Positions 1,898-19,624 of a stretch of 33,250 bases of DNA are shown here, piece by piece; the stretch's first letter is position 1, and each line of letters opens with the position of its first letter. The position numbers and the translations under genes are program-made. The stretch spans positions 1-33,250 of the forward strand of contig NZ_BIXY01000083.1 of the NCBI RefSeq assembly GCF_008326305.1. The letters run 5' to 3'. The notes beneath the pieces were generated by a model. That model was not told where the DNA came from. It worked only from the letters and a program-made list of their open reading frames with translations, and ran no database searches. This stretch comes from Dictyobacter arantiisoli (lineage in GTDB: Bacteria; Chloroflexota; Ktedonobacteria; Ktedonobacterales; Ktedonobacteraceae).

Positions 1898-3085
1898 TCA
1901 GCGTGCCTGGAAGGAGAGTGGCAGGTTGCGTGGACCAAAGATAAGACGGCTTTCCACTTGCTTCAAGGGCTGATCGTGGTTCAACTGGATCTCACGGAAG
2001 TATCTGGGAAGCGTTTCGAGCGTGGTTTTGATTTCAAGGCGCGCAAGTGGCGCTCCTACACAGAAGTGGATACCGTGCCCGAATGATTGATGACGGTTTG
2101 GGGTACGTGCGATGTCGAATTGCTGCGCATCCGTGAATTGTTGCTCATCGAAATTGGCTGAAATTCGGCTGACTTCAATGCTTTCGCCTTTGTGAATCTG
2201 CTTCTCGCCAATCATGACATCGGTAGTGGCGATACGTCCGACGAGCAGATCGTTGGGACCTGAGCGGAAGGGAGGAATGTAACGTAAGATTTCTTCGACA
2301 GCTGTGGAAGCCAGTTCAGGCTGCTCAGAGAGCCGCGCCAGCTGATCAGGATGTTCGTCAAAGCAAAGAATCATATTGCCCAGGACGTTGGTGGTGGTGA
2401 TGTTGCCAGCAATGAGTAGGGTGAAGCAGAAGTTAACCAGTCCCTCATGATCCAGGTGCTTGCCGTCTACTTCGGCGGCGATGAGGCGGCTGAGCACATC
2501 AGTACCGGGATGCTTATGATGCTCTTCAATGGCCTGCGAGAAATAATTGGCAAATTGTTCCTGTGCATAGCCAGCTTCTGACGTTTTATTGATGATCGCA
2601 TCAGTCCACTGCTTGAATTCAGGCCACTTGTCACGTGGCAAACCAAGCATTTCAGCGATCACAATCACAGGCAAAGGATTGGCTAGCTCAGTCATCCAAT
2701 CCATCTGTCCATGCGCCACAACCTTCTGGAACAGCTCATCGACGATGCTTTGGATACGAGGGGCCATGTCATTGATGGTACGGGCGGAGAAGGCTTGAGT
2801 GATGAGCGAACGCATCGCACGGTGGCGTGGTGGGTCCATCTCGATAATGCTGCCGTTCTCACTGCTAACGCCCTGATTATCCTTGACTGTATGCTCTGAA
2901 GAGAAGGTCGCGAAGTCGCTTTGTACACGGACCACATCATCATAGTGGAATACCACCCAGGTATTATTCTCTTCATTATAGACTACAGGATCGTTGGCAC
3001 GCATCTCACTGGTCCAGTTGCGTAGCTGGTGATGATATTGTTGAGGTGGAATACTCAGATCATTGACAAATGCTGGAAATTTCAA
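1898..3085 (-). CDS. cytochrome P450 (bacterial class I type)
   Basis: A cytosolic haem monooxygenase. I place the start at a TTG (3085) because AAGGA lies 7 bases before it, giving 395 residues, the usual size for soluble bacterial P450s. The frame stays open to a TTG at 3151 (22 extra residues) without a ribosome site. With the short start, the I-helix reads AGNITTTN (226-233), the K-helix ExxR is EILR (265-268), and the haem loop FGHGIHFCVG puts the cysteine ligand at 342. The I-helix acid next to the conserved Thr, usually Asp or Glu, is Ile here; the Thr is kept. That may alter proton delivery or indicate an unusual reaction. The substrate cannot be inferred and no ferredoxin gene is adjacent. 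A second P450 lies upstream on the same strand, separated by 285 bp containing a terminator hairpin, so the two are probably transcribed independently. Confidence 0.9.
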   Translation of the reverse strand: MKFPAFVNDLSIPPQQYHHQLRNWTSEMRANDPVVYNEENNTWVVFHYDDVVRVQSDFATFSSEHTVKDNQGVSSENGSIIEMDPPRHRAMRSLITQAFSARTINDMAPRIQSIVDELFQKVVAHGQMDWMTELANPLPVIVIAEMLGLPRDKWPEFKQWTDAIINKTSEAGYAQEQFANYFSQAIEEHHKHPGTDVLSRLIAAEVDGKHLDHEGLVNFCFTLLIAGNITTTNVLGNMILCFDEHPDQLARLSEQPELASTAVEEILRYIPPFRSGPNDLLVGRIATTDVMIGEKQIHKGESIEVSRISANFDEQQFTDAQQFDIARTPNRHQSFGHGIHFCVGAPLARLEIKTTLETLPRYFREIQLNHDQPLKQVESRLIFGPRNLPLSFQAR

Positions 3086-3195
3086 CGCTGTATCCTTTCG
3101 GACTAGTTCTGCCTGCTGGTATAGTTGCTTACAGACCGCATCAACAATCAAGAAAAGAGTTGCGATTCAAGCACGCCTTTGTGTAATAGCATTCC

Positions 3196-3370: not shown

Positions 3371-4600
3371 CTAGAAGGTGACAGGCAGGGTGCGTAGTCC
3401 CATAATCAAGGCGCCAGGCCGCCAGACGAGATCCTCAGCCGCGACAGACAGTTGTAGGGCAGGTAAACGACGGAGCAGCGTCCCGATAGCGATCTGACCT
3501 TCCAGACGCGCCAGAGGAGCGCCCAGACAATAGTGAATTCCTTTTCCAAAGGCTAGATGGCGATTATCGTGCCGTCTGATATCCAGTGTTTCAGCCTCCC
3601 CAAAGACACCTGGATCATGGTTGGCTGAGGCGAGCAGGACCATGACATAGTCTCCACGCTTGATCTGAGTGCCATCCAGTACAAGATCTTCCCGGGCCCA
3701 GCGCTGTGTGGCCGTCATCAAAGGACCATGGAAGCGTAGAAATTCTTCAATCGCCCCCTTCATCAGCCCTGGATCAGCCTCCAGTAACGCTTTCTGATCA
3801 GGATGCGTCAAGAGTGCCAGCGTGCCATTGCCGATCAGATTGACCGTCGTCTCGTGCCCTGCGATCAGGAGTAGCGACACCATTGAGATCAGCTCTGCCT
3901 CAGACATCTTATCACCTGCTGTTTCGACACTGATCAATTGACTGAGCAGATCATCGGCAGGGTCGGCCCGTTTTTCATTTATAATCTGAACCAGATAGTC
4001 ATGGAAGTCCATCATATCTGCACGATGTCGGTGAAATTCCTCTGGATTGCCGGATGCTTCAATAATCATATTCGACCATACATGGAATTTATCGCGATCC
4101 TCGGATTTAATGCCCAGCATCTCCATGATCACCTGCATCGGAATCGGGAAGGCATAGGCTGCGATCAGATCCGCCTCCCCCCGATCCTGTATCTTATCGA
4201 GCAAATCGTCAGCAATTTGCTGGATACGCGGCCGCCAGCGCTCGATCAGGCGTGGTGTAAAGGTCAGGTTGACCAGATTGCGTAAGCGCGTGTGGTCCGG
4301 CTGATCGTAGGCGAGCATATTGTGCGAGAAATCAATCATGCGTTCCCGCTCCTCTGGTGTGACTTGCTGTGAAGGATAATACCCTTTCAACTCTTCGGGT
4401 GTCAACGCATGCTGAATATCTTTCGCGAATCGGGGATCGCGCAGCACGAGATCGGCATCCTCATAGCGTGAAACCAACCAGCCACGCCGCTCATTCGTCA
4501 ACTTTGTTTGTCGTACAGGATCAGTTGTGCGCAGCTCTGTAAAGGTAGGATAAGGATTTGCCTTGAAATCAGGTGAAGCAAGATTTATTTCTGTAACCAT
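3371..4600 (-). CDS. cytochrome P450 (bacterial class I type)
   Basis: A 409-residue soluble P450. The start is the ATG at 4600, because GGAG sits 6-7 bases upstream; a TTG at 4612 would add four residues with no better signal. Canonical features are all present: I-helix AGHETT (about 247-252), K-helix EFLR (286-289), and haem loop FGKGIHYCLG with the cysteine ligand near 358. The N-terminal half also shows the C-helix pattern DQPDHTRLRNLV. Family members oxidise small lipophilic substrates using electrons from ferredoxin and a reductase, neither of which is encoded nearby. Its sequence clearly differs from the neighbouring P450, so this is not a recent duplication. It has its own near-consensus promoter at 4678-4706. 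Sequence alone does not identify the substrate. Confidence 0.93.
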   Translation of the reverse strand: MVTEINLASPDFKANPYPTFTELRTTDPVRQTKLTNERRGWLVSRYEDADLVLRDPRFAKDIQHALTPEELKGYYPSQQVTPEERERMIDFSHNMLAYDQPDHTRLRNLVNLTFTPRLIERWRPRIQQIADDLLDKIQDRGEADLIAAYAFPIPMQVIMEMLGIKSEDRDKFHVWSNMIIEASGNPEEFHRHRADMMDFHDYLVQIINEKRADPADDLLSQLISVETAGDKMSEAELISMVSLLLIAGHETTVNLIGNGTLALLTHPDQKALLEADPGLMKGAIEEFLRFHGPLMTATQRWAREDLVLDGTQIKRGDYVMVLLASANHDPGVFGEAETLDIRRHDNRHLAFGKGIHYCLGAPLARLEGQIAIGTLLRRLPALQLSVAAEDLVWRPGALIMGLRTLPVTF

Positions 4601-4677
4601 CGTAGACTCCAAATGAGAGAAATTATAGAACTGTTTGTTTACGTAGCATCATGTGTCTTTTTTAATCTCTTGTATGT

Positions 4678-4783: not shown

Positions 4784-6193
4784 CTAAGATGCGTGTAGAG
4801 CAGGCGTACATGTTTTGTGACGTTCGTCAGGACCGGTTGAGATGAGGCCAACCGGGATGCCGAGTTGCGCTTCGATACAGGCCAGATAGGCGGCTTGAGT
4901 GTTTGCACGATTACTCTCTTTGGGTAGGATTTGATATTCGGGTGTACAGGCCATTAATTTTCGGGTGAGCTGTTCTTGATGCGGCAGATTGGCGGGACGG
5001 TGTACCTGGATGCCGGTGATGCGGTTGTCGCTATGCTCAAAGTAGCCAGATAGGTCGTCTGTATGGCCTGTATGGCGATAGGCGGTAGTGATCTTGCAGG
5101 CCGGGAAGAGAGGCAGGCGGTCGAGATGAGTGATAGCAAGATAATCGAGTTTGCCGATTACGCGACAGGCATAGCGGGCGGCGATCAGATCAAAGTAGCC
5201 CGCGCGGAAGCTGTGTTGCCAGTCATTCCAGCTATTATGCGCTTCTGGCAGGGTATGTGTCAGGATAGGATCTTCGCTGGGCAGCGGTCCCGCACCATGG
5301 CGGGTGGCATAGGCACGCAAGAGACCAAACCTGGTGATCTCCCCTTCGTAGTTATACGTTTGCAGAAACGCATCAGCATTGGCAAAGGTGGTATGGCTCC
5401 AGGTTGAATAAGGCGCAAAAGCGAAATCTTCATCCAATAACACTCCCTGTGCACCTTCAAAGATCAGTGTTCCTTCGCGATTGCAGATATTTTGGATTAC
5501 CTTTTCATCAATGATGTCCACACAGCTGGCGAAGTGGTGATAGATATCGATGCAATCCTCGATACAGTTTTTGTCACTGAAGATGGCGCATTCCTGCTGA
5601 ACCGCCGGGAGAGCGGGCAGGAGCGGTCGTAGCCTATCCAGTTCCGCCCGCTTGCTATCCTTGATAAAGGTAAGTTTGCGCCGGATGCTCATACGGTCAT
5701 AGAGATCTCCTGCGTGCAGGATATCCTGTCCATAGGTCAGAGAATCAGCCATACATTCGCCAATTCCTTCACCACAACTGCCGTGTCTGTCCGCTCCGCG
5801 AGCCAGTTCACGCAAGCGATTGAGCGTCTTCTGGAAAGGAGTAATGATCAGCGCTTGTTGCGCGATTTGTGTCCGTGCCAGCGCATTTGGGATGTCCAGT
5901 GTGGCAAGGTGGCGCGCCTCTTTGAGCATGTTGAGAGGATTAATGAGCATCGAGTTGGTCAGCAGTGTTCTGGTCCAGGGAAGCAGCATGCCGCTCCCAA
6001 ATTGCGCGAAGGTATGATGTTGTCCGGCACTCGTGACAACATTATGCGCGGCCTGCGGGCCACCATTATAGCGTACAATCGTGTGAGCCTCGGTCTGGCG
6101 GGTCAGGTAGTCGGTCATTGTTCCCTTCCCGGCATCCCCAAAGCCCAGATCGGCAATCAAAAGTGCCTGCCTATATCCTTTTTTCTGCCTCAC
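4784..6193 (-). CDS. divergent adenylosuccinate synthetase (PurA)-like ligase
   Basis: A 469-residue protein with the PurA fold, GTG start. The phosphate loop is GFGDAGKG (residues 17-24; PurA has GDEGKG) and keeps the catalytic-base Asp at 20. The IMP-pocket segment reads RYNGGPQAAHNV with the catalytic His at 50. Later landmarks are a GAQG segment, ATRHGAGPLPSED (PurA: TTRVGEGPFP) and ITHLDRLPLF (guanine-recognition region, usually TKLD). A HGSCGEGIGE segment replaces the usual GRGIGP loop. PurA joins IMP and aspartate using GTP. Retained catalytic residues argue for an active GTP-dependent ligase, but altered substrate loops argue for a nucleotide or acceptor other than IMP/Asp, and it sits away from purine genes. 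It is the third gene of a minus-strand set with a vWA protein and a J-domain pseudokinase, although 372 bp separate it from the vWA gene. I recall similarly altered PurA-like proteins in actinobacteria, with no known role. Confidence 0.8.
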   Translation of the reverse strand: MRQKKGYRQALLIADLGFGDAGKGTMTDYLTRQTEAHTIVRYNGGPQAAHNVVTSAGQHHTFAQFGSGMLLPWTRTLLTNSMLINPLNMLKEARHLATLDIPNALARTQIAQQALIITPFQKTLNRLRELARGADRHGSCGEGIGECMADSLTYGQDILHAGDLYDRMSIRRKLTFIKDSKRAELDRLRPLLPALPAVQQECAIFSDKNCIEDCIDIYHHFASCVDIIDEKVIQNICNREGTLIFEGAQGVLLDEDFAFAPYSTWSHTTFANADAFLQTYNYEGEITRFGLLRAYATRHGAGPLPSEDPILTHTLPEAHNSWNDWQHSFRAGYFDLIAARYACRVIGKLDYLAITHLDRLPLFPACKITTAYRHTGHTDDLSGYFEHSDNRITGIQVHRPANLPHQEQLTRKLMACTPEYQILPKESNRANTQAAYLACIEAQLGIPVGLISTGPDERHKTCTPALHAS

Positions 6194-6250
6194 AGCTGTT
6201 TGCTTTCTTCTACAATATCTTAATGCAGTTAAATCCAGTATTAAAGTCTC

Positions 6251-6280
6251 TTCCGGAATTTTTTCATCTTAACCGGAATT
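6251..6280. repeat. direct CCGGAATT repeat upstream of the PurA-like gene
   Basis: TTCCGGAATT (6251-6260) and AACCGGAATT (6271-6280) are spaced 20 bp, two helical turns, in the AT-rich 372-bp region before the PurA-like gene. A paired regulator site is possible. The rest of 6194-6480 shows no gene. Confidence 0.25.
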
Positions 6281-6486
6281 CTATTCTCTTATGTGATGAT
6301 ATATATTAATGCATATGTTAATGTTTCAATCTTTGTGTATTGGCCTCGCGTGTTTCTTATTCCGACTATATGTATCAGTCTAGCTTACCCGGGACTGTAT
6401 TTATTGATGAGTGTGGTCACGAGATTTTATCGAGCCTGTCTATAAATTTCTGGTGGAGATAGCTATCCAGCTATCCATCTATGGTG

Positions 6487-6551
6487 CAATGGATACCTCG
6501 CTCAAGGTTTTTTTGAGCTTGCAAGCATCGTTTCAGCGCTGGTATCCATTG
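6487..6551 (-). terminator. branched hairpin downstream of the vWA gene
   Basis: A perfect 11-bp outer stem, CAATGGATACC (6487-6497) with GGTATCCATTG (6541-6551), encloses a second hairpin GCTCAA-7 nt-TTGAGC (6500-6518) and a short GCTTGCAAGC palindrome (6517-6526). It begins 15 bp after the vWA stop codon. It may end transcription or separate the vWA gene from the PurA-like gene, but the minus strand has no clean T-run after it. Confidence 0.45.
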
Positions 6552-6565
6552 CCATAGCGTCTCTT

Positions 6566-7576
6566 TTAGATGCGTTCGGTGCCAGTGGGCCGCTTTAAGC
6601 TTTTATGTATCTGTTCCGGCAGGCTGTTGACAGTATGTATGGTCCTACTAACAAGGTTTTTATTGTTAACATAGGTCTGGAGCGCCTGCGCCGCCGCTTT
6701 GACATTCTGCTTATCAGCTCCCGCTTCCTGGAGATCCTGCTCTCCTTCGGCGAGATTGATGGCGTTTTCGGTGAGTCCGATGGTGAGCGCAATCGTCTCG
6801 CACACGGCGTTTTCATCGTCCAGGAAGATGACATTTTGTCCGAGCAGGTCGTGCCAGAAGTTCTGGATATTCCTATCTTTCCCGTGGCTGGCGTTGCGCG
6901 GAAAGATGAAGAAGAAGTGATAGTGGCGCTGCACCTCCGCGATGATACTGTGCAACGAGATTTTCTCCTGTAGCTCATCGCCGATATGCCTGGCTACCTG
7001 CTTTGTATCCACAAATGGATAGGCTTTTTCGTCACCAATCAGGAAGGCGTAGCCCTTGCGACCGCGCTTCTCCCAGCAGTCGATGGCGGTATGGCGCGCC
7101 AGGAAGTAGAGGGCAAGTTCATAGGATTCATGCCTGGTGCCGCCTCCACCGCCTTCAAGGATGATGTTTCGCAGGTGCTCATCCATTTCGACACCACTCT
7201 CAAATTGCCCGATCTGCAAGGGGACGCGATCACAGGTGGCGTCACCGAGAGCCCCAAAGAGGATCTGTGGATCGGGCAGGTAGTTCTTGAGCAACAGCAC
7301 ACGCATCAGTTCGGCCAGTTTGCGCTGGAAGACGCGCGGAATGCCGCCCATGGAGCCGGTTTCGTCAAAGAGGATACTGATCGCGTTGGAGCGTGGATGC
7401 GCCTCGCTATCCCGGCTTTCGCGTACCGTTGCGCCCAGCGGATCAAGGCTGGGATGGATGTGCAGACGTCCGGTTGACCGTGCTGCATCGCTGTACGCAA
7501 AGTCGCTGGTATGAGCTGCTTTGCGCAGGCGGGCGGCCTCTTCATAGCTATCAGTTGACCAACGTGTACTACCCAT
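6566..7576 (-). CDS. von Willebrand factor A (vWA) domain protein
   Basis: A 336-residue protein. The ATG at 7576 is chosen because AGGA lies 7 bases upstream; a GTG at 7591 is also in frame. Residues 65-240 form a vWA domain: the metal-site motif is DETGSMG (Asp 71, Thr, Ser 75), followed by GGGGGTRHES, which supplies the second-loop Thr, and FLIGDEKAYP for the third-loop Asp. No signal peptide or membrane helix is present, so it should be cytoplasmic. The C-terminal 90 residues are polar and helical. vWA domains bind partner proteins through a metal ion. It follows the J-domain pseudokinase gene by 118 bp on the same strand, which suggests that the two act together, as TerY-type vWA proteins do with kinases. 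The exact family is not recognised. Confidence 0.85.
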   Translation of the reverse strand: MGSTRWSTDSYEEAARLRKAAHTSDFAYSDAARSTGRLHIHPSLDPLGATVRESRDSEAHPRSNAISILFDETGSMGGIPRVFQRKLAELMRVLLLKNYLPDPQILFGALGDATCDRVPLQIGQFESGVEMDEHLRNIILEGGGGGTRHESYELALYFLARHTAIDCWEKRGRKGYAFLIGDEKAYPFVDTKQVARHIGDELQEKISLHSIIAEVQRHYHFFFIFPRNASHGKDRNIQNFWHDLLGQNVIFLDDENAVCETIALTIGLTENAINLAEGEQDLQEAGADKQNVKAAAQALQTYVNNKNLVSRTIHTVNSLPEQIHKSLKRPTGTERI

Positions 7577-7628
7577 GTGTCTTTCCTTCACTTATGTATG
7601 CTTCAACGTCTCCTCGACAGTGGAGCGC

Positions 7629-7651
7629 GAACCAGATACTCTATCTGGTTC
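7629..7651 (-). other. perfect hairpin between the pseudokinase and vWA genes
   Basis: GAACCAGATA (7629-7638) and TATCTGGTTC (7642-7651) form a 10-bp stem with a 3-base loop in the intercistronic gap. There is no U-tract on the minus strand, so an attenuator or mRNA-processing/stability hairpin is more likely than a full terminator. Confidence 0.5.
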
Positions 7652-7694
7652 ATAGAAGCTTTTCGAGCGTTTGTCGTTCCTTCAACTTTTGGGA

Positions 7695-8828
7695 TTACCG
7701 TTCGGGCATACGAAATGTATGAAAGGTTCTGGGACCCCAGAGACGCTCGATCAGCGTATCGAAGTCCAGTAGCAGGGAATCAACCTCCTGAGGACGCTGC
7801 ATAGGATGAGGCAGTATACAGGCTTTCAGATAGTCACGGATCTGCCAGGGAACCGTGTCGGGCACAGCGCCCGTGTGCGGATCACCACCCAGGATGTCGA
7901 TCATACAACGGGCTCCCATGGCGATATCCAGAGCGGGTGTAGGCATTTCCCTGGCAGGCACCTCGGCTGGATACCAGTCGCGATAGGGGATACTGATCGC
8001 GCTAATTCGTTCGCCGGTATTACTGACATCCAGAACCGCATATGACCAATCGATCAGTACAAGGCCATGTTGTTCGGGATGCAGCAAAACATGAGTCGGG
8101 AGTACCGCGCCGTGGATGACGTTGTTGCGGTGTGCGAAGCCCAGCGCCACCAGCAGGCGTCGCCAGATCCAGGCCATATCTTTGGGATCGATTCCCAGTG
8201 GATATGCCTCTTTCACCTCCTGTAATGAATACAGACCTTGCGTAGCGGTTAGCACATTTAATTGTCGCACCGCGCCCGAAGCCTCTTCCTGATACATAAA
8301 GGTATCGAGCAGCTGTGAGACAAAATGACGCAAGTTGATATAGTCATAGCCAAGGCTCAGATGCGACAGGATGCGCGCCTCATTCGCCAGCAGATCATTA
8401 TCCTCTGGATGCAGCGGGAATTTAAAGATGGCTGGCTCCTTGCGACCAGTCATTGTATAACTGCCCAGATAGAGCTGGCAGATATCTCCCTGCGCGAGCG
8501 GGTGTTCGATACTATACACATGATCCGGCATCCTCAGGACAAAAGGTTCAAAGACATCCGGACTTGCGTAGGTACCATTCTCAAGCTGCTGTTGAGCCAA
8601 TTCCCAGAAATGCAGCAAGCGTTTAAACGCCTGATCCGCCGTAGCGAAGCCCTCCGAGCCCGCATGGATATCAGGATGAGCCAGCTTTGCCATCTGACGA
8701 AAGATGCGCCTGGCCGTCTCGATCTGCTCAGTGCGGGAGCCTGTTAGCGTCCCAAAAACATCCCGTGGATAACGGGCCTGTGCGAGCGTGCTCTGCAACC
8801 GCTCCAATTCATGATTGCTCACAACCAA
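7695..8828 (-). CDS. J-domain protein fused to a pseudokinase
   Basis: A 377-residue cytoplasmic protein. Residues 20-85 resemble a DnaJ J-domain with the diagnostic HPD at 51-53 (MAKLAHPDIH), the motif that stimulates Hsp70 ATPase. Residues 105-365 have a protein-kinase fold. A Gly-poor P-loop (PLAQGDICQLYLG) precedes a VAIK-like lysine (AIFKFP, K136). The catalytic loop reads IHGAVLPTHVLL where active kinases have HRDxKPxN, so the catalytic Asp, Lys and Asn are all replaced. The DFG Asp remains in LIDWS (D260). It is therefore probably a nucleotide-binding pseudokinase. The start is uncertain: TTG at 8828 has GAGG 5 bases upstream, and GTG at 8822 is also possible. It is the first gene after a strong promoter with an overlapping 16-bp palindrome, and is followed by a vWA gene. 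Confidence 0.8.
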   Translation of the reverse strand: MVVSNHELERLQSTLAQARYPRDVFGTLTGSRTEQIETARRIFRQMAKLAHPDIHAGSEGFATADQAFKRLLHFWELAQQQLENGTYASPDVFEPFVLRMPDHVYSIEHPLAQGDICQLYLGSYTMTGRKEPAIFKFPLHPEDNDLLANEARILSHLSLGYDYINLRHFVSQLLDTFMYQEEASGAVRQLNVLTATQGLYSLQEVKEAYPLGIDPKDMAWIWRRLLVALGFAHRNNVIHGAVLPTHVLLHPEQHGLVLIDWSYAVLDVSNTGERISAISIPYRDWYPAEVPAREMPTPALDIAMGARCMIDILGGDPHTGAVPDTVPWQIRDYLKACILPHPMQRPQEVDSLLLDFDTLIERLWGPRTFHTFRMPER

Positions 8829-8835
8829 AATCCCC

Positions 8836-8872
8836 TCTCATAGTTAGTGTACCGCTTACACTAACTATGAGA
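8836..8872. promoter_or_regulatory. 16-bp perfect inverted repeat: operator of the pseudokinase operon
   Basis: TCTCATAGTTAGTGTA (8836-8851) is followed by CCGCT and the exact reverse complement (8857-8872). It begins 2 bp downstream of the -10 box and covers the predicted transcription start, the classic position for a repressor of TetR or GntR/YtrA type. Its proximal arm also overlaps the Shine-Dalgarno region (GAGAGGGG on the minus strand), so an RNA hairpin limiting translation is an alternative. No regulator gene for it is seen in the window. Confidence 0.8.
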
Positions 8873-8874
8873 AA

Positions 8875-8903
8875 GTTATAACATGAAAAACGTGCGTTGT
8901 CAA
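8875..8903 (-). promoter_or_regulatory. near-consensus sigma70 promoter of the pseudokinase operon
   Basis: TTGACA (8898-8903), 17 bp, TATAAC (8875-8880) on the minus strand: 11 of 12 consensus bases at ideal spacing. Such a strong promoter directly followed by a perfect palindrome implies tight repression and high output on release. Confidence 0.85.
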
Positions 8904-9018
8904 GGTATTTAATCCCTTTGCTGTGAAGAGGACAAGAAAACATCTGCACGCCCTCTCTTGCTTATACGTTCTATTATAAACAAGGGACACAGCGCTGCTA
9001 GTGAAAAGGAAGATCTGG

Positions 9019-9621
9019 ATGTCGAAAATATTGCGTATCTCGGTTATGCAAGCAGGCGAATGGTTTAAGGATCGCGATCCCGAGGAGTGGCGTCGGAAGC
9101 GGGCGCAGGTGCTGCGACAGAGCCAGTATACCTGTAGTTATTGCCAGCTCACCTGTCGAAAATTCATGCAAGTTAATCATATTGGAGCCGAAGATGATCA
9201 TCGACCGGAAAACCTGGAGACTGTTTGTCCAGCCTGTCATAGCGTCATGCATCTTGGCATTAATATCCTTGAAGGCACGCTCAGCATCTTTGACTGCTTG
9301 CCGGAAGTCAATAATATGGCTGCTATTGTTTGCGCTACTCGTGCCCTCGTCGCCAGAGACCTGCCCTGGGAGCAGATTGAGGACCAGATCCTGCAACGCT
9401 TCGCTGCTCCTGCTGGCAGGCTCTATAGCCGGGGAGAGAGCCTGGATTTTGCCAATGACCTGTTGCGAGCTATCCAGCCCGGAGCTTATCGTAGTTATCT
9501 AGCGGCTGGAAAAGCCATCCTCTTCCATGCCGCCTCGCCGTGGAACGACTATCCTGAACGTATCTGGCGCTGGCAATGCCTCCCTGGCAGTCGCTACCGC
9601 ACGACACAGCCAGAGAGCTAG
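9019..9621 (+). CDS. HNH endonuclease-like protein
   Basis: About 200 residues. ATG at 9019 is preferred because AGGAAG lies 6-8 bases upstream; GTG at 9001 is also in frame. Residues about 37-80 form an HNH module. The first CxxC (CSYC) is followed by VNHIGAEDDHRPENLETVCP with the central catalytic His and Asn, a second CxxC (CPAC), and the terminal His (HSVMH). HNH domains cut DNA with a single metal ion; the two CxxC pairs bind structural zinc. The remaining 120 residues are helical and unrecognised, with no known fusion domain. The gene is divergent from the J-domain pseudokinase operon, about 190 bp away. Its stop codon overlaps the stop of the convergent DUF4291 gene. Whether it belongs to the neighbouring system or is a solitary nuclease is undecided. 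Confidence 0.82.
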   Translation: MSKILRISVMQAGEWFKDRDPEEWRRKRAQVLRQSQYTCSYCQLTCRKFMQVNHIGAEDDHRPENLETVCPACHSVMHLGINILEGTLSIFDCLPEVNNMAAIVCATRALVARDLPWEQIEDQILQRFAAPAGRLYSRGESLDFANDLLRAIQPGAYRSYLAAGKAILFHAASPWNDYPERIWRWQCLPGSRYRTTQPES

Positions 9622-10235
9622 CGGCAGCCAATGTTCCGCGCCAGAGCTTCAGCGAGCGGATAGACCCGCTCTCTGGGAAGAAAGTCCCTGGCCTTCGCCT
9701 CCTCGCCTGCTTGCAATAGACCACGGATTTTCCTCACCAACGGTGTGATATCGCGGATCTCCAGGGTCCAATCATTAACATATCTTTCAATTATATGGCG
9801 GCTCAGACCCACCTGAATACTCCTTACAGGCAAGCTTTTCCCCCGCAGATTCCTCTCTGGGTCCCATTGGATAAGCACTGTAGCCTGTTTTAGCCGTGTG
9901 TTCCACTCATCTTGGGATATTCTATACGCATGAGGGTCATAAGACGTCAAAACGGCCTGTGAGAGCGCCTCCTCCCATCCCTGCCGCGAAATGCGAATCG
10001 CCAGAATCGTGTCCTGGCCAGGTTTTTTCCCCCAATTACTGCGTTCCATCATCCATAAAAAAGAAGGTTTAATCCATGTCATTCTATTTAACGAAAAAGG
10101 AGCGACAAAACGATTATGTTGTACCGCAGGGAGAGCAATAGCTTTACTGTACGCCTGATAAACAATAATCGATTTGCTCTCATAATCCGCACGAATTTCA
10201 TGTTTGTTCATAAGCATTATTTTATCAACAATCAT
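9618..10235 (-). CDS. DUF4291 family protein
   Basis: About 205 residues. The ATG at 10235 is supported by AAGGA/GAGAG shortly upstream; an in-frame ATG at 10310 would add 25 Cys/Arg-rich residues unlike the family. The signature is clear: HEIRADYESKSIIVYQAY near the start, then RMTWIKPSFLWMMERS, KPGQ, VLIQWDPERNL and SIQVGLS. These match the conserved blocks of DUF4291, a ~190-residue family spread through bacteria and fungi whose biochemical function is unknown. It lies downstream of the truncated haemoglobin gene on the same strand, 83 bp away, so they may be co-transcribed. It ends tail-to-tail with the HNH gene, sharing CTAG at 9618-9621 so that each strand's TAG stop lies within the other gene's end. 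Confidence 0.9.
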   Translation of the reverse strand: MIVDKIMLMNKHEIRADYESKSIIVYQAYSKAIALPAVQHNRFVAPFSLNRMTWIKPSFLWMMERSNWGKKPGQDTILAIRISRQGWEEALSQAVLTSYDPHAYRISQDEWNTRLKQATVLIQWDPERNLRGKSLPVRSIQVGLSRHIIERYVNDWTLEIRDITPLVRKIRGLLQAGEEAKARDFLPRERVYPLAEALARNIGCR

Positions 10236-10318
10236 CAGCTCTCTATCCTTGTTGCACCTGCGCTCTATTCTGCAGCAGCTGAAAGATAAGGACAATGGGT
10301 TGTTTCTCACTCCTGTTT

Positions 10319-10919: not shown

Positions 10920-13900
10920 TCAGGCTTCCGATAAGAGATCTTTCTGGGCGGACAAGAGGTCAATGACTTTGATAATCATCTCTTCAGGTTGTTCGCATGC
11001 GAAGTTGTGCCATTCGGTCGCGCTCGCCCCGATGAAGGTACGCAGGGATGGGACATAATAGCGGGGATAGGTTTTTTGACGAGCCAGTGACAATAAGATG
11101 CTTCGTGATCCGCACATCCGACACCATATTGAGCCCTCTGCTTGATGGCTGGCCTGCTCGCGATGCACTCTTCCATTGTCTTCCCAGCGCCCTTCACACC
11201 ATACTCCTGTCTGCTCACCCTCATTTCCTTTATAGATATCCTCATCTGTAACAACAATCTCTATCGGCACATTATTTCTCTCTATCTCTGAAAATTCCGT
11301 TTCTATGGGCACACTATAGCACTCTATCTCTGAAGTATTTGTCTCTGTTGGCGGAGTGTTTTCCTCTATCTGAGAAACATCGGTCTCTATTTGCACACTA
11401 TAGGGTTCCACATTTAAAGTATCCCCCTCTATTTCAGCTGCCTCCTCTTCAGTGACTGACGGATATGATGGATATGATGGGTTATGCATAAAACTTTTAT
11501 TTTGAGTGGAAGAATTAAAGGATGTAATATTTAAAAGTTTCGGAGATGATCCGTCATATCCATCATATCCATCATCATCTTTATTTTTCATGCTTGTGTG
11601 GTTGTCTGTTTCTGGTGTTTGCGCTGAATCTTCTACCCGCCGGGCATCATGATTCGGGGAGTAGAGACCGATGCCGCGATAGATAGCTCCAAAGGTTGTA
11701 TGCATCTTCTCAAAGCGTTTGGATAGTTCTGTGCCAAAGGCTTTCAGGCTGAGCGGACGATCTGTGCGGTTGTCATCGTGCCACCGTTCATAATGGCTAT
11801 AGAGAATGCTGGCTTTGATTTCGGACTGGGGAGCGATGGTGCAGCGATCACGGATAAATTGTTCGATGGGATCTTGCGCAGCGCGATATTGCGTGTTGTT
11901 GGCCTGAACTGCGGTTGGTATGTTGAGTCCCTCTTTTTTCCATTGCAGGCAGCCGCGCATCAGCCAGGCGAGGATACCGCTGCGTTCCGCATAGAGTGTC
12001 TCTTCTAACTTTTTATCGCGAGGACGCTCATTCTCTTGCTGCGGATGATCTACAAAGCGCATACTAAAGTCGATCAGGCAGATACGATCCCAGGCTGCTT
12101 GCTCTTTTGAATTGATGATAGGTTTATGATTGGTCATCAGGAGGAGTTTATGGGTGGGCGTAAAGGTGTGCCCATGCTTGCTATAGAGATGGCGGGCGTT
12201 GATGTCTCCTCCACCGGACAATTGCTTGACACGGGCGACATCAATACGGTCCCCCTGGCGTGTCTCGCTACCCCAGACAACACGCTTGCCCTGGAGATCG
12301 CTGAGATGCGGGGTGGGTGCTCCGCCGGTTTTGTTGCGGTTCTCTTCGACAAAAATATCGTTGCTGATGGCGCTAGCAATTGGCCCCAGTACTTGATGCA
12401 GGGCGCGTAGCAGTGTATCCTTTCCGTTGCGCCCCTCTTCTCCATACAAGATGGTGAAGATGTGGTCCTCAGTTGAGCCAGTGATACAGTAGCCAAGCAG
12501 GCGCTGTAGAAAAGCGATGATGTTTGTACGCTCAACCTTATCGGCGAAGATCTCCTCTAAAAAGTATTCAAAGCGTGGACAGGGGGTATCCAGTCCGGCC
12601 CATTCGGTGGGACAGATAGTGCGCAGATAATCGCCAGGGACTCCTGCATTACATTGTCCGGTTCTCAGGTCGAGAACTCCATTCGGCACGGCGAGTAACC
12701 AGGGATTGCTGTCCCACATCGTCGTTTCAATGCTCACATAACTGGTAGCCATGGACATGATATTCTTGATGCGCCGGTAAGAGTGCAGTGCTTTGGCGCG
12801 TGCTTTCAGTTGTTTGAACTGCCCCTCCATCTGTTCTACCTGACGACCGAGCTTCTCTGTTTCGCCGTAATTACGCCCTCGACTCTGCTTTTCAGCTTGT
12901 CGTAGTTGTTCGCACGAGTTGACATAATCAATTTTCAATGCAGCCGCCGCTTTGAGATAGATCGAGGCCAGTGAGCCCCCCACCAGTTGCAGGATCTTGT
13001 CCGTACTATCACGTTTCCAGGCGTGATCGCGCCAGATATACCATTCTTTTTCGAGATTGTCATAACAGACTTTATCCGCAAAAGCCTGGGCAAAGAGTTG
13101 CGCATCACCCATCTCGTCATCCTTGAGACAGGCCAATACGTCCTCAAAGGCAACATCATGCGGTTTTAAGATCCATTTTTTTTCCTCATGCAGCATCTGG
13201 AGTTCGCGTTCACAATCAATGTGGGATTGCTTGAGGAGTTGATCGATGGCTGCCGCGAGCTGCTGTTTGCTGCGTCTGGGAGTATAGGTTTCCGTACAGA
13301 TCGCACAGGCACGGCGCAGAGTCTCCTGTCCGTATGTGCTGACACCACGCCCTGCATCCCATTTGGTGCGATAGAGAGCGCTGCGGCGGAAAAGTTTATC
13401 CATACGGACACTATCACGTCCGGTCCAGAAGGCAAGATGCAGGCTGAGTGCCATATCCGCTTCTGAAGAGGATGTATAGTCAATGGTTGCGCCATCATAA
13501 AAGAGTGCCTGGAAGCGTGCTCCATTACTGGCCTCGCAGGCGCGCTGCAAGAGTTCCTCATCATCTAGAATAAAGAATGAGGTGGTGGGAGGGTTGGGAT
13601 GTTGAGGATTTTTCGCGTTGGAAGTGTCTTTGGAGGGAATGGTGTTCAGGTGTGTAAGTGAGACTGCGAGCTGTTGTTTGGTTCTGTCCACCGCTCCTGC
13701 AGGAGGACCGGATGTAGGTGTGGCTGTTTCTGGGCGGGAAACCTGCTGATAAAGCTTATCCAGAGCCACTTGCCGGGATTCGATGTTCTCTGACGTCTCC
13801 GGTACATGATTTCCCGTCACCGTAAAATAGCGCCGCGAGCAATACATCTCAATTGCGGCATGGTTCTGCAAGGGCTCCCAGTGCGCCGGGATCTTACGAC

Positions 13901-14291
13901 GAGATCCATGGGGTATCTGACCGCGTACGAAGATATGGATACCACTGCCGCTGGGTGAGAACTCGGTGTAGCTGTTGAGATGTTTGATGATGCGCCAGGC
14001 CCAGCGCTCGATCACGCCTTGCTCATCCACACAATGATCCAGATCAATGCCGGTGTAATCTTCATGGAACATATAGCCCAGGCCAGCATAGTTTTCGCGT
14101 GTCGCGGCCTCCTGCGCCTGTTGATAGTTGCACCAGGTTTGTGGATCATTGGAGCGTGCCCAACGTCCGGTTGTCGGGGTGTAAGGAATTTTCGTGAATG
14201 ATCCGTTGCGTTTTTCTTTGCGCCAGCAGATCCAGTGAGGGGAATTTTGTAGTTCTCGTAACGCGGCGGTGTCCCGTATTTTATTGTCCAT
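10920..14291 (-). CDS. mobile-element primase / SF3 helicase (P4 family)
   Basis: 1123 residues. Residues 10-190 form a primase-polymerase domain: GYMFHEDYTGIDLDHC gives the DxD-type metal site, and YTEFSPSGSGIHIFV is the conserved SGxGxH block. Residues about 370-560 are helical (D5_N-like). From about 590 comes an SF3 helicase with Walker A GEEGRNGKDT, an acidic Walker B region (GKRVVWGSET) and sensor segment KLLLMTNHKP, as in phage/plasmid P4-type replication proteins. After about residue 860 is a linker with YDGYDG and SYPSYPSV motifs, then three or so 16-residue repeats (S-V-P-I-E-T ... S-E-I-E), then a CxxC (CRMCGS). It lies 21 bp after an xre-type gene. A large inverted repeat lies within the linker-coding DNA. 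It marks an integrated plasmid or satellite, but no integrase or att site was found. Confidence 0.92.
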   Translation of the reverse strand: MDNKIRDTAALRELQNSPHWICWRKEKRNGSFTKIPYTPTTGRWARSNDPQTWCNYQQAQEAATRENYAGLGYMFHEDYTGIDLDHCVDEQGVIERWAWRIIKHLNSYTEFSPSGSGIHIFVRGQIPHGSRRKIPAHWEPLQNHAAIEMYCSRRYFTVTGNHVPETSENIESRQVALDKLYQQVSRPETATPTSGPPAGAVDRTKQQLAVSLTHLNTIPSKDTSNAKNPQHPNPPTTSFFILDDEELLQRACEASNGARFQALFYDGATIDYTSSSEADMALSLHLAFWTGRDSVRMDKLFRRSALYRTKWDAGRGVSTYGQETLRRACAICTETYTPRRSKQQLAAAIDQLLKQSHIDCERELQMLHEEKKWILKPHDVAFEDVLACLKDDEMGDAQLFAQAFADKVCYDNLEKEWYIWRDHAWKRDSTDKILQLVGGSLASIYLKAAAALKIDYVNSCEQLRQAEKQSRGRNYGETEKLGRQVEQMEGQFKQLKARAKALHSYRRIKNIMSMATSYVSIETTMWDSNPWLLAVPNGVLDLRTGQCNAGVPGDYLRTICPTEWAGLDTPCPRFEYFLEEIFADKVERTNIIAFLQRLLGYCITGSTEDHIFTILYGEEGRNGKDTLLRALHQVLGPIASAISNDIFVEENRNKTGGAPTPHLSDLQGKRVVWGSETRQGDRIDVARVKQLSGGGDINARHLYSKHGHTFTPTHKLLLMTNHKPIINSKEQAAWDRICLIDFSMRFVDHPQQENERPRDKKLEETLYAERSGILAWLMRGCLQWKKEGLNIPTAVQANNTQYRAAQDPIEQFIRDRCTIAPQSEIKASILYSHYERWHDDNRTDRPLSLKAFGTELSKRFEKMHTTFGAIYRGIGLYSPNHDARRVEDSAQTPETDNHTSMKNKDDDGYDGYDGSSPKLLNITSFNSSTQNKSFMHNPSYPSYPSVTEEEAAEIEGDTLNVEPYSVQIETDVSQIEENTPPTETNTSEIECYSVPIETEFSEIERNNVPIEIVVTDEDIYKGNEGEQTGVWCEGRWEDNGRVHREQASHQAEGSIWCRMCGSRSILLSLARQKTYPRYYVPSLRTFIGASATEWHNFACEQPEEMIIKVIDLLSAQKDLLSEA
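11461..11570. repeat. 40-bp-arm inverted repeat inside the primase gene
   Basis: Arms 11461-11500 and 11531-11570 are inverted copies separated by 30 bp. They match almost perfectly over the outer 18 bases (GGATATGATGGATATGA) and again over the inner AAACTTTTA, with scattered mismatches between. The open reading frame is preserved: one arm encodes YDGYDG and the other SYPSYPS. It resembles palindromic elements that insert within coding sequences. Confidence 0.7.
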
Positions 14292-17115: not shown

Positions 17116-18087
17116 ATGGCCCAACGTATTATGCTTATCGTTGTATTAGTATTTATGATTGTGATTACCGTGCTTGGTATTATCTATGTCCCGACCATCC
17201 TTGCCAATGTGCGTAGTGGATCAGGCTTACTGACGGCTGCGGCCACGCCGACGCCGACGCCCGAGCCGCCGACGCCAACTCCTGAGCCGCCAACGCCAAC
17301 GCCCACTGTTGCTATTCCGACCGCAACGCCAACGCCAACCCCCTTTGTCAGCGGTACCGAAGCATATTTAATCGATGCCGATACCGGAACCATCCTTTAT
17401 AACTTGAATGGTACCCAGAGCGCTCCGATCGCCAGTACTACCAAGATCATGACTGCGATTATCGCCATCGAGAATGCGAATCTCGAGCAAGGAGTCACTA
17501 TTCAGCAAGCCGATCTGGATCAGGTGCCAGCGGGAGCCAGTACTGCTGGCCTGGTCGCTGGTGACTACTTCCGCCTGCGTACCCTGTTGGATGCTTTATT
17601 GCTCCGTTCAGGGACCGATGCCTCTATTGTGATCTCGCGCGTTGTCGCTGGTAGTACCCAAAATTTTGTGGCTATGATGAATAATAAGGCACAGCAGCTC
17701 GGTTTAGCTCATACCCACTACAGCAATCCACACGGTTTTGGTGGAGCTGACCACTACTCATCGCCTGCCGATCTGGTCACGCTTGCCAACTACGCCATGC
17801 GCAATCCTACCTTCGCGGGCATCGTTGGAAAGAGCAGCTATAGCGTCCAGCCCACGCTCTACACTCGTGCCTATAACTGGTCAAATACCAATACGCTCAT
17901 TTCCAGCTATCCGGGTGCTGACGGTGTCAAGACAGGCTGGACCGATGATGCTGGCGTCTGCCTGGTCTTCTCTGCCCGCCGCAACAGTCATCATCTCATC
18001 GGTGCTGAATTAGGGGCTAAAACCTACGACGCCGTTTTTGCTGACAGCACCAAACTCCTGGATCTCGGCTTCAGCAAAGAATCCTAG
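17116..18087 (+). CDS. membrane-anchored D-alanyl-D-alanine carboxypeptidase (S11)
   Basis: 323 residues; ATG preceded by AGG at 6 bases. Residues 7-27 are a signal anchor, 41-77 a Pro/Thr linker built from repeated PTPTPEPP units (cell-wall spacer), and 80-323 an S11 peptidase domain. The acylating SxxK is STTK (107-110, ASTTKIMTA), and KTG is at 272-274 (GVKTGWTDDAG). The second motif is SGT (165-167) where most family members have SxN, a conservative but notable change. The enzyme should trim terminal D-Ala from peptidoglycan stem peptides outside the membrane, limiting cross-links. It lies 63 bp downstream of its catalytically dead paralogue in the sigma-factor operon, and a 17-bp hairpin terminator follows. 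Confidence 0.9.
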   Translation: MAQRIMLIVVLVFMIVITVLGIIYVPTILANVRSGSGLLTAAATPTPTPEPPTPTPEPPTPTPTVAIPTATPTPTPFVSGTEAYLIDADTGTILYNLNGTQSAPIASTTKIMTAIIAIENANLEQGVTIQQADLDQVPAGASTAGLVAGDYFRLRTLLDALLLRSGTDASIVISRVVAGSTQNFVAMMNNKAQQLGLAHTHYSNPHGFGGADHYSSPADLVTLANYAMRNPTFAGIVGKSSYSVQPTLYTRAYNWSNTNTLISSYPGADGVKTGWTDDAGVCLVFSARRNSHHLIGAELGAKTYDAVFADSTKLLDLGFSKES

Positions 18088-18115
18088 CAATGCTATTCCT
18101 CGGTATCTCATAACT

Positions 18116-18179
18116 AGAGCAGCAAGCGAGCCTGAATATATATATTGATAGTTTATTTGGATGGCTCGCTTGCTGCTCT
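18116..18179. terminator. bidirectional terminator hairpin
   Basis: Arms of 17 bp (18116-18132 and 18163-18179) are perfectly complementary, with a 30-base AT-rich loop. It lies between convergent genes ending at 18087 (+) and 18209 (-). There are no long T-runs flanking it. Confidence 0.65.
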
Positions 18180-18208
18180 GTGTGTAGGGAAGCTGCTTGC
18201 TGATTAGC

Positions 18209-19624
18209 TTATTTGTTGAGATACCAATCGGTAGTGGTGAGATTGGGATATGTGATAGTCTTCTTGCTCAGATCAGCTGGTGGACCCGGAAACGCCTGGA
18301 TCGGCTTGCCAGCTTCCGCAAGCTGCATGCTATCATGCCAGATTTGCGCCGCCCCATCCTGTAGCGTGAGATTCGTCAATTGTGCATAGCTTGTATTTCC
18401 GGCCCAGGCTCCGCCCACCAGATCATTCGTATAGCCAATAGTGATAGTATCTTTGAATACACCGTTGAGCGCACCCACAGCCGCCGCCGGGCGGACCTGT
18501 CCTGGATTTCCTGCCAGACATTGCGCCTCGCTATTGCTATAGAGCAAGAGCGGAGTACATTTGCCGGTTTCATGCGTGCGAGCAGCGTTATCGCTGAGAA
18601 CGTCAGTGAGCATAAAGGCAGTCTCCGCGCTTACGGCCCGCGTCTGTGATGGATGCGCGCTATAAATAGTATGGCCACTGCTATCACTGATACTCTCAAT
18701 CGTGTATGGGGTGGTATGGACGCCCGCATTGGCAAAGCTCTGATAGCCCGCCGTGACATCGAGCAGGGGAAATTCGACGGGTCCAAAGGGTGTACTGTTA
18801 TGGTCCGGACCGAGATCGGCTGCCTGCATACCTGCATGGATAATTACTTTTTTAAGCGCATCGTAGCCCACTTTCTTATAGAGTTTGAGGGCTGGAATAT
18901 TATAGTTATTTTGTAGCGCCTCGCGGTAAGATAGATAACCATGATACTGGTGGTCATAATTGGACGGCGCATACGTTTGACCGGATGGGTCAACAACCGA
19001 AAATGGAGCATCGTAGACTACCTCGCCTGGACTGATCCCCAGCTCGAAGGCGCTTGCATACACAAATGGCTTGAGCGTTGAGCCGATGGCGCGACTTTTG
19101 TGCTGCATGACGTCCAACGGTTGTGTGGATGTTGAACTATCCAGACCCCCGAATAGCGTACGGATCGCCGAGCTATGGGCATCTAGCAGTACGACTGCGG
19201 CATTGTTCATATTATGGAGCGCGCCAGCAGTGCTGATATACTGCTGCGTTTTTTGTAGAATCTGCTTTTGTAGTTGGAGATCCAGAGTTGTCGTGACCTT
19301 TAGTTGTGTGGTTGGTAGATTGTTATTGCTCACCGTGAGATCCCGCGCCAATTCATTGAGCGTATCATCGATAAATTGGAATGCTATCTGTCGGGATGGT
19401 GCATGCTGAGATAGGCAATCACGCCGTGTATCTTGTCCGTGCAACTCGCAGATCAGTTGTCCATGCACATCATAGAGCTGGATTGGTCCCTTCGTCGTAT
19501 TCGTCGTATTTGTCGCCGTGGGAAGCCCCATGCAGGCGCTCAAGATACAGGCCAATAGAAATGACATCCCTATGTTCAAACATCCAGACAGACGTCCAGG
19601 CGGGAAGCCGTGTTTACTATCCAT
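18209..19624 (-). CDS. lipoprotein-like penicillin-binding transpeptidase lacking the KTG motif
   Basis: 471 residues; ATG with AAGGAG 10 bases upstream. The N-terminus is a lipoprotein signal with lipobox LSAC (Cys 31). Residues 105-420 resemble the transpeptidase domain of class A penicillin-binding proteins: TTLDLQLQ, GSTLKPFVYA with SxxK at 182-185, then NNYNIPALKL in place of SxN. The KTG-box region aligns as P-A-A-A-V-G-A-L before FKDTITIGYT, so the Lys is lost. The glycosyltransferase (GT51) half normally present in class A proteins is missing. Acylation by the Ser may still occur but catalysis should be weak, suggesting a sensor, scaffold or beta-lactam-binding role. It is convergent with the sigma/DD-peptidase operon and downstream of an S53 protease. 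Confidence 0.85.
   Translation of the reverse strand: MDSKHGFPPGRLSGCLNIGMSFLLACILSACMGLPTATNTTNTTKGPIQLYDVHGQLICELHGQDTRRDCLSQHAPSRQIAFQFIDDTLNELARDLTVSNNNLPTTQLKVTTTLDLQLQKQILQKTQQYISTAGALHNMNNAAVVLLDAHSSAIRTLFGGLDSSTSTQPLDVMQHKSRAIGSTLKPFVYASAFELGISPGEVVYDAPFSVVDPSGQTYAPSNYDHQYHGYLSYREALQNNYNIPALKLYKKVGYDALKKVIIHAGMQAADLGPDHNSTPFGPVEFPLLDVTAGYQSFANAGVHTTPYTIESISDSSGHTIYSAHPSQTRAVSAETAFMLTDVLSDNAARTHETGKCTPLLLYSNSEAQCLAGNPGQVRPAAAVGALNGVFKDTITIGYTNDLVGGAWAGNTSYAQLTNLTLQDGAAQIWHDSMQLAEAGKPIQAFPGPPADLSKKTITYPNLTTTDWYLNK

Follow-up and report, generated by a model that had tools for sequence, protein, structure and literature searches.

A three-gene unit of a J-domain pseudokinase, a vWA protein and a PurA-like ligase in bacteria and phages, with a predicted link to the NrtR regulon

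The Dictyobacter arantiisoli contig NZ_BIXY01000083.1 (33,250 bp; contig C83 of genome G000 in our labelling) carries three genes on its minus strand that encode a protein with a J-domain joined to a kinase fold (KIN), a vWA protein and a PurA-like ligase (Table 1); 'the window' below means this whole single contig. These three genes, here called the trio, are one unit, and on balance we favour the view that they function together within the NAD+/ADP-ribose regulon of NrtR, the Nudix-type repressor that controls NAD genes in response to ADP-ribose. The original prediction for this DNA had proposed a system of four members, including a divergent HNH nuclease; KIN, vWA and PurA-like have stood up as one system, and the nuclease, which is unlinked to them in every other genome tested, has not.

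A three-gene unit in bacteria and phages

In a family-level check, for which homologues of each trio protein were sought in 40 relatives, the three genes were all adjacent in five genomes of the family (that of the window and four others), and in one further genome the trio is cut by a contig end. The genes flanking the trio vary between these loci, so the trio is conserved by itself. GTDB genomes scanned with the vWA alignment gave at least 555 confirmed stretches, and IMG/VR gave 384; of each we examined the best 80 loci, which in the bacterial set come from Actinomycetota and Chloroflexota. KIN, vWA and PurA-like follow each other in this order on one strand at 70 of these bacterial loci, where the gaps are small, and at 59 of the viral ones. 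A PurA-like gene is present at 78 loci of each set and KIN at 71 bacterial and 60 viral loci, which makes vWA-PurA a tighter pair than vWA-KIN in the viral set. The original prediction had made the place of the PurA-like gene depend on its neighbourhood in other genomes, and there it adjoins the KIN-vWA pair in the family, in the wider bacterial set and in viruses.

About 190 Bixzunavirus mycobacteriophages hold the trio in order (gp106, gp105 and gp104 in Tonenili), and Rhizobium and Vibrio phages hold a vWA-PurA pair for which KIN was not found. The genes directly upstream of vWA in these last phages were considered as hidden kinases and rejected, as they encode unrelated Met/Gly-rich proteins. 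The vWA gene occurs in 76 of 151 genomes of one Actinomycetota family, once in each, and in 7 of 251 Chloroflexota genomes.

The gap that separates vWA from the PurA-like gene in the window is exactly 372 bp, as originally stated, and is shorter in relatives. No promoter-like site was seen in it on the strand of the genes, and a repeat or mobile element was rejected as its origin because the gap sequence is single copy in the genome. It does contain a highly stable hairpin (6479-6557; on the transcript strand the opening 130 nt of the gap have a folding energy of -40.9 kcal/mol), which may tune expression of the PurA-like gene.

The three proteins

The AlphaFold model of KIN (predicted local distance difference test, pLDDT, 95.5) has an N-terminal J-domain hairpin, with helices at 32-50 and 61-83, followed by a kinase fold, and the solved structures closest to it are protein kinases (PDB, E 4e-11). 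The Pfam J-domain score is under the cut-off, and the HPD motif is present in 45 of the 46 relatives that cover its position, out of 48 diverse relatives aligned. By its sequence KIN is a pseudokinase, because the catalytic Asp of the HRD motif, replaced by Ala241 in the window, is absent from all 48 relatives (41 have Ala). Lys136, Glu150 and the DFG Asp of the ATP site are retained in 43, 44 and 37 relatives, respectively, and most members probably still bind ATP. The earlier description of a J-domain fused to a catalytically deficient kinase fold is thus borne out, with Lys136, Glu150 and mostly Asp260 remaining. At four loci (L046, L047 and L061 in Hamadaea; L059 in Actinomadura xylanilytica) we observed nrtR, vWA and PurA-like genes without a detectable KIN, and some lineages seem able to dispense with the pseudokinase.

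A Pfam search gave no matching model for the vWA protein. Its predicted structure (pLDDT 90) matched vWA and integrin beta I-like domains at Z about 16 over 190 residues (2.8-3.5 A), and the model and alignment together give a vWA fold with a metal site of the DxSxS/DxTxS type. The residues of this site (D76-T78-S80...D187), which had been called intact, are invariant or nearly so, as are the family-specific residues Q126, Q129-F130-E131, G149 (of GGG 149-151) and E155. Among the structural matches listed, TerY did not appear, which is not evidence either way. We prefer ATG 7576 as the start codon; it is preceded by AAGGAAAG, and the MG at residues 6-7 of the longer open frame is the conserved start.

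The PurA-like protein resembles PurA (PF00709, TIGR00184) in its fold, in its GTP site (GDxGKG, TxxD) and in Asp13/His41 and Gln224 (E. coli PurA numbering throughout). Pfam Adenylsucc_synt matches it at 221 bits, but it falls far below the PurA equivalog cut-offs (177 bits against 402; 157.8 against 395.55). In the trio proteins of both bacteria and viruses, conservation reaches 99-100% for Asp13, Lys16, His41, Gln224 and the GTP-site Asp333, and Thr239 and Arg272 are likewise essentially invariant. In contrast to PurA, Asn38 has become Gln, Thr129 Cys or Val, and Arg143 is lost; Val273 is His in all sequences, and the TTGR loop (300-303) has become WQG with the Arg303 column deleted. Asn38, Thr129 and Arg143 are contacts to the phosphate of inosine monophosphate (IMP) in PurA, and the TTGR loop binds aspartate. 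These diagnostic changes are near 100% in bacteria and viruses alike; the altered substrate loops first noted in the window are therefore real and belong to the whole family.

In a tree, the bacterial and viral PurA-like proteins form a single clade apart from PurA and PurZ (support 100/99). Bacterial rows are scattered among viral ones, with at least two label changes forced, and because of this nesting an exchange of the gene between phages and bacteria appears likely. An ordinary PurA is encoded elsewhere in all 19 of the trio genomes examined, and therefore the PurA-like protein is not the housekeeping enzyme. Genome G000 has in addition an extra PurA paralogue (L219:258-1535; contig C95, about 17757-19034) that keeps Asp13/His41 and has lost Gln224 and Arg272 (EGQLSAMKDID, YSTQVG), and many relatives have a second PurA copy with about 27-29% identity to the query.

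Read against the known mechanism of PurA, the retained residues point to a 6-oxopurine that is activated with GTP, and the altered residues to a different amine donor and a different phosphate end. It is likely that the enzyme catalyses a new reaction, because its catalytic core is intact and its substrate pocket is rebuilt identically in bacteria and viruses. Given the NAD link described below and the altered phosphate-end residues, a hypoxanthine dinucleotide of the ADP-ribose or NAD type would be an attractive candidate for the substrate.

Promoter, operator and NrtR

The trio of the window lies behind a promoter that the original prediction had described as palindrome-controlled, and this description holds: the -35 and -10 hexamers (TTGACA-17-TATAAC) are accompanied by a perfect 16-nt inverted repeat. 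The motif TAGTGT-N7-ACACTA stands once or twice at the matching place in all five Ktedonobacterial trio promoters, either exact or with one flank base changed. Across 12 Chloroflexota trio loci (197 kb), the shorter form AGTGT-N7-ACACT occurs at 13 sites, 12 of which lie no more than 250 bp ahead of the first trio gene (at 9 of the 12 loci), and the 13th precedes nrtR. Across five whole genomes the motif proved rare, with 15 sites, nine of them at trio promoters (five), before nrtR (three; G000, G008 and G012) or before nadB (one; G012), the last identified by a TIGR00551 match above the cut-off. The regulator encoded beside such a site in G000, at L237:1628-2434, has a NUDIX and an NrtR_WHD domain (7e-29) and fits best, under the cut-off, the family 'ADPR responsive transcriptional repressor'. 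Judged by its position, TAGTGT-N7-ACACTA most likely serves this lineage as its NrtR operator. The motif was also seen near an uncharacterised gene of 209-215 aa in two genomes of one genus (L235:1501 and L236:1501), which could be a further member of the regulon.

At 70 of the 80 bacterial loci, nearly all of them in Actinomycetota and one in Anaerolineae, the trio is preceded on its own strand by an nrtR-type gene, in most cases as the immediate neighbour. CTCA-N3/4-GAG repeats precede nrtR at 58 of 68 loci, with at least two copies at 46, where about 0.04 would be expected per upstream region; they are a probable lineage-specific operator. Tandem copies stand ahead of the actinobacterial nrtR-trio operon at L054, L088, L092 and L109, for example. 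The operator sites found here do not match the Mycobacterium NrtR motif, GTTTTCGA-N7-TCGAAAAC, and NrtR motifs vary between lineages, for example in Streptococcus (PMC6800001).

Some viral loci join the trio to genes of NAD salvage, among them one for nicotinamide phosphoribosyltransferase (NAMPT). The order at L132 is nrtR, vWA, NMNAT/Nudix, NAMPT, PurA-like and KIN, with overlapping genes; at L160 it is nrtR, NMNAT/Nudix, NAMPT, two small genes, KIN, vWA and PurA-like; and an NMNAT/Nudix gene lies near the trio at L187. A Rhizobium phage gene annotated as 'NMN adenylyltransferase/Nudix' was dropped as a further case of NAD salvage: its product, of 187 aa, seems to be Nudix-only, and the neighbouring phosphoribosyltransferase is a ComF-like PRTase_3. 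Taken together, the regulatory link of the trio to NrtR and NAD is well supported.

Table 1. Features of the trio locus and adjacent genes in the window
Feature	Coordinates	Strand	Evidence
PurA-like GTP-dependent ligase (predicted); Asp13, Lys16, His41 and Gln224 kept; N38Q, V273H, WQG in place of the TTGR loop (in the window, WQH)	4784..6193	-	phrog_1211 (3e-67), Pfam, residue alignment
vWA protein, intact metal site	6566..7576	-	phrog_2971 (9e-66), conserved start ATG 7576; open frame from GTG 7591 (7591-6566)
KIN; J-domain (HPD 51-53) fused to kinase fold, HRD Asp lost, ATP-site Lys136, Glu150 and Asp260 kept	7695..8828	-	phrog_3043 (3e-44), residue alignment, AlphaFold model
Predicted NrtR operator; perfect 16-nt inverted repeat, core TAGTGTAAGCGGTACACTA (minus strand)	8836..8872	.	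sequence, recurrence of core
Promoter; -35 TTGACA (8903-8898), 17-nt spacer, -10 TATAAC (8880-8875)	8875..8903	-	sequence, same architecture in four relatives
HNH nuclease gene	9001-9621	+	slightly above Pfam cut-off
DUF4291 gene beside HNH	9618-10310		Pfam, 237 bits

Proposed role, alternatives and neighbouring genes

From the computed unit, gene order, operator, regulator linkage, residue changes and folds, we infer a ligand for NrtR, a substrate and product for the enzyme and a complex of the proteins, as follows. Breakdown of NAD+ would raise ADP-ribose, at which NrtR would leave its predicted operator, and the trio would then be transcribed from the TTGACA promoter. With GTP, the PurA-like enzyme would act on a hypoxanthine-type purine nucleotide, activating its oxo group by Asp13/His41 chemistry, and the activated nucleotide would be joined to an amine that is not aspartate. 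Judging by the altered residues at the phosphate end, this nucleotide is probably not plain IMP, and it may be a dinucleotide of the ADP-ribose or NAD type. The vWA protein, through metal-dependent binding, and the pseudokinase, as a putative ATP-binding and DnaK-recruiting partner, could form a control or assembly complex for the ligase. The trio would probably serve to maintain, repair or alter the NAD-linked nucleotide pool during NAD stress; this role is probable because large phages carry the trio, sometimes inside their own NAD-salvage operon. Only tentatively do we extend it to a new ADP-ribose-responsive pathway of nucleotide ligation, in which the PurA-derived enzyme, controlled by a complex of the vWA protein and the pseudokinase, would add an amine to a hypoxanthine nucleotide of the NAD/ADP-ribose type, and by which, under NAD+ depletion in phage-host conflict, bacteria and large phages would repair or alter the NAD pool.

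Several findings weigh against placing the trio as one functional unit in an NAD regulon. Six of the 15 genome-wide operator copies lie at unrelated or unexplained genes, and the number of copies per genome (1-6) is not above that of a reversed control motif, so that the significance of the motif lies in its location only. Just 3 of the 80 viral loci were found to have NAD-salvage genes no farther than 8 kb from the trio. KIN is absent from 6 of 77 bacterial and 15 of 75 viral loci, and because some loci lack it, it may be accessory. Furthermore, regulators of the NrtR family need not sense ADP-ribose, as one member senses arabinose (PMC4666351).

The evidence can be read in other ways. The trio might be an anti-phage or stress defence, in which the PurA-like enzyme produces a signal nucleotide or an antimetabolite, the vWA-pseudokinase pair gates it as a sensor, and the phage copies are captured counter-measures. 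Its patchy spread and its presence in both phages and hosts agree with this, as do NAD+ depletion and ADP-ribose, which are known currencies of anti-phage defence (PMC9503650, PMC12774641). However, no effector (nuclease, membrane protein or NADase) conserved with the trio was seen; PADLOC 2023 has no model for the vWA or PurA-like protein and returned only generic kinase and HNH matches; and the great frequency of the trio in phages argues against a purely anti-phage role. We regard this explanation as unlikely. PurZ, which serves the 2-aminoadenine (Z) DNA of phages, belongs to the same enzyme superfamily, and the many phage carriers would suit an enzyme that makes a modified purine for DNA, with KIN and vWA serving the same end. 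Yet the residue pattern is the opposite, since PurZ (NF038379) has Ser13 and keeps N38 and V273, whereas the trio enzyme has Asp13, Q38 and H273 and scores 41.5 bits with the PurZ model against a cut-off of 300. As a PurZ-type Z-DNA enzyme it was therefore rejected, and the trio is also common in bacterial chromosomes, where it is tied to NrtR; a PurZ-like role in DNA modification seems decidedly improbable.

The TerY-P triad of ter loci consists of vWA, kinase and PP2C proteins, and the original prediction had drawn on the likeness of a vWA gene adjoining a kinase-fold gene. If the trio were such a module, the vWA-kinase pair would be the functional part and the PurA-like gene a frequent passenger. 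But the vWA gene is linked more tightly to the PurA-like gene than to KIN, as the viral counts and the KIN-less pairs of Rhizobium and Vibrio phages indicate; the kinase, with its J-domain, is inactive by sequence; no PP2C partner was seen; and the third gene encodes a PurA-like ligase. We consider a TerY-P-like module improbable, and the ter comparison holds as an analogy only. Least credible, with hardly any probability left to it, is a four-gene system with the HNH nuclease, which is a divergent neighbour in the window only. Among 160 other trio loci searched, HNH gave a single weak match (8.8e-05); in G008 a distance of 2.7 Mb separates its orthologue from the trio, and in G003 and G004 the HNH gene occurs although there is no trio. 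It was accordingly rejected as a member, as was the DUF4291 gene, which is absent from all other trio loci tested. Apart from nrtR, no recurrent fourth gene was seen among the neighbours of the trio.

Two further features of the window were noted. Two adjacent genes that share a strand (1898-3151 and 3371-4612) lie just downstream of the trio and, judged from their translations, look like cytochromes P450. A D5-type phage/plasmid primase-helicase of 1123 aa with an NrS-1 HBD domain (10920-14291) suggests that an integrated or degraded mobile element lies beside the trio.

In its regulation the trio resembles the NrtR regulon: the predicted operator is common to the trio, nrtR and nadB, and nrtR lies upstream of the trio in Actinomycetota. 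The trio differs in that it is not among the NrtR targets in the literature found and its enzyme is no known NAD enzyme. The phage NAD+ reconstitution pathways NARP1 and NARP2, with Adps/Namat or NAMPT and NMNAT as core enzymes, are similarly phage-carried and NAD-linked, and NAMPT and NMNAT/Nudix are joined to the trio at L132 and L160; however, NARP enzymes are not part of the trio and are usually not nearby (Adps was not searched for). The trio is thus not PurA, PurZ, TerY-P or NARP, and behaves like a gene set of the NrtR regulon. No description of it was found in the searchable literature (openly licensed papers without preprints, so that an unseen description is possible), and the passages available from PMC7159879, PMC7824862 and PMC9503650 do not describe it. 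We rate the trio as a new kind of system because each named system failed on a defining feature and no compared system has these parts; it is apparently undescribed as a set, under the regulation, it appears, of a known regulon.

In summary, the genes of the trio have so far been annotated piecemeal, as 'kinase', 'hypothetical' or 'PurA-like', despite at least 555 bacterial vWA stretches and hundreds of phages. Their place in the NrtR regulon points to NAD+ and ADP-ribose, molecules that are contested by phages and their hosts, and the trio is therefore a testable new piece of NAD biology in the conflict between phages and bacteria, for which Bixzunavirus phages grown on M. smegmatis would be a tractable system in the laboratory.

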